Assembly: GCA_030670085.1 (NCBI GenBank)
Contig: DAOVCJ010000006.1
Location: 1-44,242, forward strand
Direction: 5' to 3'
Length of the DNA: 44,242 bases
DNA from: Candidatus Aenigmatarchaeota archaeon
GTDB lineage: Archaea > Aenigmatarchaeota > Aenigmatarchaeia > QMZP01
In this document: in pieces, positions 4,410 through 44,024 of the stretch
Layout of the letters: every line of letters starts with the position of its first letter
Position numbering within the stretch: the stretch's first letter is position 1
Notes under the pieces: generated by a model
Database searches by the model: none
Told to the model about the DNA's origin: nothing
Seen by the model: the letters and a program-made list of their open reading frames with translations, nothing else
Made by a program: the position numbers and the translations under genes

Positions 4410-4931
4410 ATGGAAGAGAGGGTTATACTTGTAGATGAGAATGACAAGGTTATTGGGACAGAGGAAAAACTGAAAGCGCATCAGAACGGCGGGAAGCTGC
4501 ATAGGGCATTCTCCATATTCATCTTCAACAGCAAGGGAGAGATGCTTCTCCAGAAGAGGGCGAAATCGAAATACCATTTCGGCGGTCTCTGGACAAACGC
4601 GTGCTGCAGCCACCCGAATCCTGACAAACCCCTGGAAGATACTGTCCACAAAAAACTGGAGCAGGAAATGGGCTTTGACACGGATTTGAAGGAAACGTTC
4701 ACCTTTATCTACAAGGCAGAGTCTGAAAACAATCTCACAGAGCACGAACTCGATCACGTATTCATAGGAAAGTTTGACGGCGAGCCGAAAATCAATCCAG
4801 AAGAAGCAGATGAGTGGAAGTGGATAAACATAGAAGAGCTACAGAAAGATATCAAGGAAAACCCGGGAAAATACACACCATGGTTCAAAATCGCGCTAGA
4901 AAGGGTCATTTCGGAAAGAAACAACATCTAA
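4410..4931 (+). CDS. idi: Isopentenyl-diphosphate delta-isomerase, type 1 (Nudix)
   Basis: LHRAFSIFIFNSKGEMLLQKRAKSKYHFGGLWTNACCSHP, E-rich Nudix-like helix, EADEWKWI. Confidence 0.9.
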   Translation: MEERVILVDENDKVIGTEEKLKAHQNGGKLHRAFSIFIFNSKGEMLLQKRAKSKYHFGGLWTNACCSHPNPDKPLEDTVHKKLEQEMGFDTDLKETFTFIYKAESENNLTEHELDHVFIGKFDGEPKINPEEADEWKWINIEELQKDIKENPGKYTPWFKIALERVISERNNI

Positions 4932-17875: not shown

Positions 17876-18010
17876 GGGCCCGTAGCTCAATCGGATAGAG
17901 CGCTCGAGCATTTGCGGCGAAGCTTCGGACCGAGAGGTTGGGGGTTCGACAAGCGAATGACGGCTTGGATATATTGAAACAAGCCGTCTCTCGAACATCC
18001 CTTCGGGCCC
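17876..18010 (+). tRNA. tRNA-Arg(TCG) with two introns: 17907-17921 (30/31, 15 nt) and 17951-17997 (59/60, 47 nt)
   Basis: GGGCCCG/CGGGCCC acceptor; mature CTCGG-CTTCGGA-CCGAG and GGGGG-TTCGACT-CCCTT; BHB motifs drawn at both junctions. Confidence 0.88.
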
Positions 18011-18042
18011 ATTTAAATCGGACCTGAACCAATATATATTCT

Positions 18043-18966: not shown

Positions 18967-19009
18967 ATAAATCTCCTTTTTTAAATATTGAATAATCAAT
19001 TTAAGTCAT

Positions 19010-19129
19010 GCCGGGGTAGCTCAGTTGGTAAGAGCGCTAGACTCATAAGAAAGGCTTATGAGTTCTGATTCCAGATGACGAAGGCTCTGAGACATCTAGA
19101 GGTCGTGGGTTCAAGTCCCGCCCTCGGCA
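19010..19129 (+). tRNA. tRNA-Met(CAT) (elongator-like) with 46-nt intron at 37/38 (19048-19093)
   Basis: GCCGGGG/CCTCGGC acceptor, CTAGA-CTCATAA-TCTAG, GTGGG-TTCAAGT-CCCGC; canonical BHB: CTCA/TGAG central helix, bulges TAA and ACA. Confidence 0.92.
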
Positions 19130-19309
19130 TTACATAATCCGTATACGGGATGTGGCTATTAAGCATATTCCTATTATGCCTATAACAATTGCAGCACCTG
19201 TTGTAGTTTCTCCGAACAGACTGCCCTCAAACATTATGGCAGCACCTGTTAACGCCAATATAATTCCCAATACAAATCTAATTAAAGACCACTTTTTGTT
19301 TTTCTCCAT
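19130..19309 (-). CDS. Small two-TM membrane protein, 59 aa (below ORF-track cutoff)
   Basis: MEKNKKWSLIRFVLGIILALTGAAIMFEGSLFGETTTGAAIVIGIIGICLIATSRIRIM*. Confidence 0.6.
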   Translation of the reverse strand: MEKNKKWSLIRFVLGIILALTGAAIMFEGSLFGETTTGAAIVIGIIGICLIATSRIRIM

Positions 19310-20509: not shown

Positions 20510-21697
20510 ATGATGGAGATAAGGTTCGATCCCAAGAAGGGAATCTGGGCTGAAGAGGAAGAGACTGTAGACAAGCTCAGGAAGAACTACTTCGGTACTC
20601 CGAAGGGGAAGAAAATCTGGCTTGAGATAGAGGAATCTCTGTATCTGATAACCTTCCAGAACGCTTCATGCTGGCTCGGGAAAAAGCAGATAGGCTTCAA
20701 TGAGCTTGCCTCCCACTTCGCGAAGAAGGACAAGAGGCTTTTCATAAAATATAACGCCTACAGGGACTGGAGGGACAGGGGCCTGGTTGTGAAGTCAATA
20801 GGCCTGGTTGAGACTGGGAAGAAGAGGAAGGTCAAGTGGAGGAGATACCCTGCAGAGACATCAAAAATCAAAAAGTTGAGAGCCAGGGTTTACTGGTATC
20901 CTGATTCTTTGTTTTCAGTTCTGGAGGACGAGACCCTTGGAAAGAAGCTATTCAATGATTACTGGTTCGGGCAGTTCGGAATCTACAAGCAGGAAAGGGG
21001 GACGCTTCTGAAGCTGAATTTTCTGGAAACTATATTCCTTGCAAAGCACTTCGGTTTAAAGGTCGTTAATGTTGAAAACGGGAAGGAGATGAAATCATCA
21101 CAAATCCTTGAACAGGTCACAAAGGAGAGGGAGTATACAAAAAGCCTTTACAAAGTTTATGAGGAATGGAGACTGAAGGGTTACGTTGTGAAGACCGGTT
21201 TCAAGTTCGGTTCGCATTTCAGGATTTATTTCCCTAGCGCATCTCCAGCAAAGGAAGGGAAATGGATCCATTCGAAGCATGTACTTCATGTTTTCCCAAA
21301 GGAGCAGAAACTCCTGATATCTGAATGGGCAAGGGCGGTCAGGGTCGCGCATGGAGTGAAGAAGACATTCCTTTTATCCGTTCCCGAGCTGGAGAAAAAA
21401 GACTACGTGGACTATCCGTCAGATTTCATTGCATACAGAAGGAAGAAGGTTGGTGGGAACTGGATAAGGGAAACCCTGGAGGACAAAGCAAGGTATCTCC
21501 TGGTCGCTGTCTCCGAGGATGAGCACATAGGAGGTGTTGAGCTCGCTTCCCTCCTCACAAAGGCAGAGAGAATGGGACTGAACGTCCTGCTTTCCATAAC
21601 AGACAGGGAAACCTCAATCACCTACTACGTCCTTAACAAGGTAAAGCTGCCCGGCTCCAAATACGAATACTATGAGATTGAATGGATGAAGCCGTAG
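20510..21697 (+). CDS. endA: tRNA-splicing endonuclease EndA, multi-unit (possibly epsilon2-like) architecture
   Basis: YEEWRLKGYVVKTGFKFGSHFRIY...IHSKHVLHVF...RVAHGVKKTFLLSV (Y/H/K triad context) plus extra C-terminal unit ending ERMGLNVLLSITDRETSITYYVL. Confidence 0.9.
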   Translation: MMEIRFDPKKGIWAEEEETVDKLRKNYFGTPKGKKIWLEIEESLYLITFQNASCWLGKKQIGFNELASHFAKKDKRLFIKYNAYRDWRDRGLVVKSIGLVETGKKRKVKWRRYPAETSKIKKLRARVYWYPDSLFSVLEDETLGKKLFNDYWFGQFGIYKQERGTLLKLNFLETIFLAKHFGLKVVNVENGKEMKSSQILEQVTKEREYTKSLYKVYEEWRLKGYVVKTGFKFGSHFRIYFPSASPAKEGKWIHSKHVLHVFPKEQKLLISEWARAVRVAHGVKKTFLLSVPELEKKDYVDYPSDFIAYRRKKVGGNWIRETLEDKARYLLVAVSEDEHIGGVELASLLTKAERMGLNVLLSITDRETSITYYVLNKVKLPGSKYEYYEIEWMKP

Positions 21698-38604: not shown

Positions 38605-38634
38605 GACGGCTTGCCTTGATATAAACAAGCCGTT
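38605..38634. repeat. 30-nt hairpin element, intergenic copy in rpoB'' leader region
   Basis: GACGGCTTG-CCTTGATATAAA-CAAGCCGTt. Confidence 0.7.
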
Positions 38635-42506: not shown

Positions 42507-42588
42507 AAACTCACCAAGGAGTTTATTATTCGGTTTGGTATTTAAATACTTTTCCGTAAAAAACCGGAAAACAAATAAAAAAATAAGT

Positions 42589-42790
42589 GGGCCCAGAGGG
42601 AAATCCGAGAGACGGCTTTCTCCAATCTTCCCAAGCCGTCATACGCTTCTCGAACCCTCGACACCCGGGTTTAGAGCACTCTCGCTTAAAGCGAATTTCT
42701 CCCTGTCACTGGCAATCCATGCGATTGCCTCAACATGCTTTTATCCTGACAGATAAAAGCCCGGTGCTCTACCAACTGAGCTATGGGCCC
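42589..42790 (-). tRNA. tRNA-Lys(TTT) with two introns: 42671-42753 (37/38, about 83 nt) and 42602-42648 (59/60, 47 nt)
   Basis: GGGCCCA/TGGGCCC acceptor, CCGGG-CTTTTA|A-CCCGG, GAGGG-TTCGAGT-CCCTC; BHB clear at 59/60. Confidence 0.85.
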
Positions 42791-43603: not shown

Positions 43604-43633
43604 TACGGCTTTGCTCAACCCATGTAAGCCGTC
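43604..43633. repeat. 30-nt hairpin element, solitary copy upstream of tRNA-Asp
   Basis: Minus strand GACGGCTTA-N12-AAAGCCGTA followed by TTCGA. Confidence 0.65.
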
Positions 43634-43818: not shown

Positions 43819-43860
43819 CAAATAATAATTGCGAATCAGGTATTTAAACGTTAATTTTAT

Positions 43861-43982
43861 GGGCCCGAGGGGAGATTCGAGGGACGGCTTGTTTCAATAC
43901 ATCCAAGCCGTCATACGCTTTTTCGAACCCCTGACATCTCGGTTAAGAGCCGAGCGCTCTAACCAGGCTGAGCTACGGGCCC
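43861..43982 (-). tRNA. tRNA-Lys(CTT) with 59/60 intron 43874-43921 (48 nt)
   Basis: GGGCCCG/CGGGCCC, CTCGG-CTCTTAA-CCGAG, AGGGG-TTCGAAT-CCCCT; BHB TTCG/CGAA with bulges AAA and TCT. Confidence 0.92.
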
Positions 43983-43994
43983 GTCACATCGAAC

Positions 43995-44024
43995 GACGGC
44001 TTATTTTGATTTATCCAAGCCGTC
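43995..44024. repeat. 30-nt hairpin element, solitary copy upstream of tRNA-Lys(CTT)
   Basis: Minus strand GACGGCTTG-GATAAATCAAAA-TAAGCCGTC followed by GTTCGA. Confidence 0.75.

Follow-up and report, generated by a model that had tools for sequence, protein, structure and literature searches.

The closest described relative of the enzyme considered here is the epsilon2 RNA-splicing endonuclease (EndA) of ARMAN-2 (Candidatus Micrarchaeum acidiphilum; PDB 4FZ2, 9W2K), and residue roles for this type come from a 2025 RNA-bound structure (PMC12397907). Broad specificity is expected for epsilon2 enzymes and likewise for the (alpha-beta)2 enzymes of N. equitans (3IEY) and Aeropyrum pernix (3P1Z), and these two types are the only ones reported to remove relaxed bulge motifs efficiently (PMC6379350). 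A further point of reference is the alpha4 enzyme of Methanocaldococcus jannaschii (1A79). A review speaks of a single splicing endonuclease for each organism (PMC4090602). The open-access literature that we searched yielded neither a case of two splicing endonucleases in one organism nor a description of a three-unit enzyme outside the ARMAN archaea. As for the substrates, introns of similar sequence are known from different tRNAs of Thermoproteales, where transposition has been proposed (PMC4033280, PMC4090602).

Our analysis covers a 44,242-nt stretch of a Candidatus Aenigmatarchaeota genome (the window) together with the rest of that genome and its relatives. We are confident that the open reading frame at 20510–21697 encodes an epsilon2-type RNA-splicing endonuclease that counts T-loop introns among its likeliest substrates and would act alongside an alpha-type EndA. 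The epsilon enzyme adds a member to a type already described; what is new is its pairing with alpha in one genome and an alpha family that lacks the catalytic lysine.

Architecture and residues of the three-unit endonuclease

The endA gene (20510–21697, + strand) encodes 395 aa. In a phmmer search of the PDB, residues 10–395 aligned with residues 12–387 of ARMAN-2 EndA (4FZ2/9W2K; E = 1.1e-103; 44.8% identity), while the remaining PDB EndAs gave partial alignments only. The chain is composed of three units in the order alphaN-alpha-betaC. The non-catalytic alphaN unit (about aa 1–97, 20510–20800, boundary approximate) contains a Pfam EndA N-domain match (PF02778, aa 16–48) and forms a compact alpha/beta block in the predicted model, which bears out the N-terminal pseudo-unit suspected in the earlier note. 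It is followed by the catalytic alpha unit (about aa 125–295, 20882–21394, boundary approximate), with the C-domain match PF01974 at aa 213–295 and model elements spanning 126–292. The roughly 120 aa that the note had seen beyond this unit, ending in a second C-domain-like motif, prove to be a betaC unit (about aa 305–395, 21422–21694). A whole-genome profile search returned a second, weaker PF01974 match in the same frame (21407–21625, 22 bits), and the beta-subunit profiles NF007084-86 match aa 314–380, with the beta match of the genome search lying at 21485–21649. The motif ERMGLNVLLSITDRETSITYYVL falls within this region.

An AlphaFold monomer model of the protein (pLDDT 87, pTM 0.81) superimposes on 9W2K with a TM of 0.89/0.91 and an rmsd of 2.6 Å (Foldseek E = 3e-43). 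By residue alignment, the catalytic triad is complete and present once, in the middle unit: Y240 (21227–21229; ARMAN-2 Y236), H254 (21269–21274 together with S255; ARMAN-2 H251 and S252) and K285 (21362–21364; ARMAN-2 K282). The bulge-binding pair is likewise present, with R278 (21341–21343; ARMAN-2 R275) in the catalytic unit and W392 (21683–21685; ARMAN-2 W384) in betaC, as are the Y159-K160 pair of the ARMAN-specific loop (ASL; 20984–20989; ARMAN-2 Y160-K161) and K232 (ARMAN-2 K228). All nine mechanistic residues of the ARMAN-2 enzyme are thus found in the window protein. They are also kept across 37 Aenigmatarchaeota and 39 Micrarchaeota homologues, save for one K-to-R exchange and one gap; the loop tyrosine occurs in 76 of 76 homologues and the loop lysine in 75, the other having Arg. 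The earlier note had called the Y/H/K context intact and likened the protein to the three-unit epsilon2 enzymes of ARMAN, proposing structure prediction and alignment of the ARMAN loop as checks; both were run, and both agree with it.

Two other enzyme types, raised in the note as possible refutations, were considered for this gene. One is the ordinary alpha-prime2 EndA of two units, which would be narrow in specificity and would here carry an unrelated extension at its C terminus. Such an enzyme also fuses a pseudo-unit to a catalytic unit, and the model does resemble enzymes of this type at a Foldseek TM of about 0.5. This reading is scarcely credible, however, because the chain continues for about 100 aa of betaC past the catalytic unit, its last 90 aa match beta subunits, the alignment extends to ARMAN-2 residue 387 with W384 included, and the ASL Tyr-Lys pair is in place. 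Alignment, residues and structure search all speak against alpha-prime2. An (alpha-beta)2 enzyme requires a separate beta gene and was rejected, since none was found: genome-wide, PF01974 at E ≤ 10 recovers the epsilon and alpha genes only, and the beta profile, apart from betaC of epsilon, picks up just the alpha gene, weakly. The bin searched is 87.6% complete, and two single-contig relatives (G001, CP070801.1; G035, CP070804.1) give the same result.

The epsilon2-type protein is closest in sequence to other Candidatus Aenigmatarchaeota genomes (89% for CP070801.1, 63% for CP070804.1), and Micrarchaeota homologues are 39–47% identical over the best segment; a Micrarchaeota or ARMAN host was rejected on this ground. 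Its dN/dS of 0.080 against G001 indicates strong purifying selection. It shares length, unit order, fold, triad, Arg/Trp pair and ASL Tyr/Lys with the ARMAN-2 enzyme and differs in its host, an Aenigmatarchaeota archaeon, and in the presence of a second, alpha-type EndA in the same genome. The link to ARMAN drawn in the note therefore stands for the enzyme type; the family itself is not confined to ARMAN.

By analogy with the RNA-bound structure, two alphaN-alpha-betaC chains would form the working dimer, and Y240, H254 and K285 in each half would cut RNA by an RNase-A-like transesterification. The first bulged base would be clamped between the chains, by R278 from one and W392 from its partner, and the Y159/K160 loop may hold relaxed bulge motifs in register. 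Likely substrates would be T-loop introns in which an asymmetric loop replaces the intron-side helix, as well as ordinary BHB introns. The exons would then be sealed by RtcB, the expected exon ligase, which is encoded in the genome.

tRNA introns and the hairpin family

The window contains introns of several kinds. In tRNA-Arg(UCG) (17876–18011, +) a 15-nt intron lies at 30/31 (17907–17921) and a 47-nt intron in the T-loop at 59/60 (17951–17997). tRNA-Lys(UUU) (42588–42790, −) combines an anticodon-loop intron with putative ends and a 47-nt 59/60 intron (42602–42648), and tRNA-Lys(CUU) (43860–43982, −) has a 48-nt 59/60 intron (43874–43921). tRNA-Met(CAU) (19009–19130, +) has a 46-nt intron in its anticodon loop (19048–19093). 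Standard scanning with ARAGORN/Rfam missed the T-loop-intron tRNAs, so these genes were assigned by reading the sequence. Within the anticodon loop of tRNA-Lys(UUU), a structured insertion of about 80–90 nt (42650–42780, −) has CTTTTATC/GATAAAAG and CTGTCA/TGACAG pairings and possibly comprises more than one intron.

Judged from their sequences, the T-loop introns are relaxed motifs that keep the exon and central helices and have mostly lost the strict intron-side helix. We counted pairs on an explicit register in 13 such introns, nine from the source genome and four from three relatives. The T-stem is paired at 5/5 positions and the central helix at 4/4 in 13 of 13, and the intron-side loop is asymmetric, with a 5′ linker of 6–9 nt and a 3′ linker of 3–4 nt. 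The 3-bp intron helix after the 5′ bulge is absent in seven of the eight introns scored. The hairpin stem of these introns has changed at both partners of a pair (C-G to A-T and T-A; G-C to A-T).

The earlier note had located introns at 30/31 and 59/60 and considered that they fit a broad-specificity enzyme. Both positions are occupied, and for the relaxed 59/60 introns the proposal is plausible and agrees with their structure. By its score the 30/31 intron is a strict BHB, for which a broad-specificity enzyme would not be required. Epsilon alone does not account for the richness in introns. Class-level relatives of the order that have alpha alone also possess intron-rich tRNAs, so intron richness by itself does not demand epsilon. 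A T-loop-intron signature was found in 9 of 36 epsilon genomes and 2 of 18 alpha-only genomes (one of them chance-like), a difference in the predicted direction that is not significant, with counts made by hand and a signature recall of about half. One genome that is alpha-only in a 92%-complete bin (G011) still carries a T-loop intron.

The T-loop introns, those of the three window tRNAs included, belong to one dispersed family built on a 28-nt hairpin core, ACGGCTT-N14-AAGCCGT, flanked roughly by CGNATG...CTNTCG; loop and flanks are both conserved. Exact core copies number six in the window (17960–17987, 38606–38633, 42612–42639, 43605–43632, 43884–43911 and 43996–44023) against none in 100 shuffles, and 21 genome-wide against none for the reversed control. 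Further copies of the hairpin occur in tRNA D-loops, in 16S and 23S rRNA, immediately before the 5′ end of tRNA genes and ahead of some protein-coding genes, and the family is also present in other genera of the order. The leader copies precede their tRNA genes by a few to about 20 nt, as seen at 43996–44023 and 43605–43632 in the window and at two further loci (L040, C20:23078; L062, C13:35518). As with the Thermoproteales introns, one sequence family populates introns of different tRNAs. It differs from them in extending to 16S/23S rRNA, D-loops and leaders and in having a fixed 28-nt hairpin core.

The 16S gene (L073:460–2211; G000:C20:104959–106710) carries seven insertions of 33–48 nt, 300 nt in total, of which the hairpin family accounts for at least three; more copies lie in the 23S gene. 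The length of the 16S gene was rejected as a sign of epsilon-dependent introns, since alpha-only genomes have long 16S genes too. A different repeat family in G011 is seen in an in-frame insertion of about 90 nt with palindromic repeats in a DNA polymerase B gene (L205, G011:C39, about 4604–4695).

An alpha-type paralogue with a replaced lysine

The note's epsilon2 reading is right; the genome also holds a second EndA outside the window, where a reader of that stretch could not see it. This stand-alone, alpha-type protein of about 176 aa is encoded on contig C28 (L001:1474–2004, −). Its monomer model (pLDDT 88) is closest to the alpha4 enzyme 1A79 (TM 0.83–0.86) and has the single-unit EndA fold. 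Its nearest relative is the alpha protein of G001 (95% over 146 columns), against which a dN/dS of 0.075 indicates strong purifying selection. Both enzymes also occur together in a congeneric genome assembled as a single contig. Because the one-contig genomes G001 and G035 carry both, contamination is an unlikely origin of the alpha gene and the pair is not a binning artefact.

With the M. jannaschii enzyme the paralogue shares fold, Tyr, His, a conserved Arg and a 'PED' segment that falls opposite the loop of that enzyme in the alignment. It differs at the catalytic lysine, the Lys of 'HSVRK' in 1A79, where it has Ala, so that its Tyr/His/Lys triad is incomplete. Ala, rarely Thr or Ser, occupies this position in every alpha of the class that we surveyed (30 sequences in alignment A2 and those of seven further genomes), although Tyr and His are invariant. 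The alphas of two Micrarchaeota genomes (L233, L234) retain the Lys. A second difference from 1A79 is an insertion directly before the catalytic His, which is Lys-rich, contains an invariant GPK in alignment A2 and resembles KKGKRSEREHSKW of N. equitans. Lysines of this loop may take over the role of the catalytic Lys. The Lys-less enzyme itself is probably active, because alpha is the sole EndA found in an intron-rich genome, G041. This assembly is 93% complete in 5 contigs, and 11 of its 14 tRNA matches extend over at least 100 nt. The family puts the invariance of the Tyr/His/Lys triad in question.

Distribution and origin of the two enzymes

Among 41 genomes of the order, 15 encode both enzymes, 21 epsilon only, three alpha only and two neither, which puts epsilon in 36 of 41, almost the whole order. 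Outside the order, 19 of 20 class-level genomes have alpha-type, alpha/beta-type or two-unit genes, and a recognisable epsilon was found in none of the 20. These counts were made by hand from frame lengths, and absence from a fragmentary bin is weak evidence for any single genome. In family f4, epsilon is the sole EndA in all eight genomes where an EndA was found; alpha seems to have been lost there, and epsilon evidently suffices. Gene order at polB, compared with a view to the apparent absence of epsilon from G003 and G011, is not conserved.

How the two enzymes share the work can be read in more than one way. We favour an epsilon enzyme that acts beside an older alpha EndA, which would do without the canonical Lys and still appears to be a functional splicing enzyme in related lineages; alpha could remove some or all introns, and a division of labour between the two may exist. 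Epsilon might instead be genuine but redundant, an acquired enzyme in a minor role while alpha does most of the splicing. The retention of alpha beside epsilon in those 15 genomes, the purifying selection on alpha and its standing as sole EndA in class-level genomes whose tRNAs are rich in introns lend this some weight, but epsilon is under purifying selection as well, is found almost throughout the order and is the one enzyme left in f4, and we regard redundancy as unlikely. Somewhat less likely still is that alpha has lost catalysis and serves as a partner or regulator, or that it enters mixed complexes with epsilon, rather than being a second enzyme. The replaced Lys would suit such a role; the invariant Tyr and His, the 1A79-like fold and the fact that no other EndA was found in well-assembled genomes rich in introns, G041 among them, do not.

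In a tree rooted with alpha as outgroup, the Aenigmatarchaeota epsilon sequences form one clade (100/99) nested within those of Micrarchaeota, next to three Micrarchaeota genomes that also have alpha. This nesting suggests that epsilon came by transfer from Micrarchaeota, although a single Micrarchaeota epsilon clade is not rejected by the AU test (p = 0.234). A tentative scenario, which we consider possible and no firmer than that, begins with an ancestral Aenigmatarchaeota alpha that works without the canonical Lys, possibly by means of the KxGPK-loop lysines. One order would then have gained epsilon, probably from Micrarchaeota, after which the intron load was divided or alpha was replaced, and a single family of hairpin introns would have dispersed among the tRNA and rRNA genes of this lineage.

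An order-wide epsilon in a second DPANN phylum, beside an older alpha, presents the natural stages of alpha only, both, and epsilon only. With one endonuclease added and the other lost, co-evolution of enzymes and introns becomes testable within one order. Among 30 Micrarchaeota genomes chosen for having epsilon, three also have a strong alpha, and eight (including L235, L236 and L237) encode a weakly matching EndA-like protein in frames of 157–235 aa.
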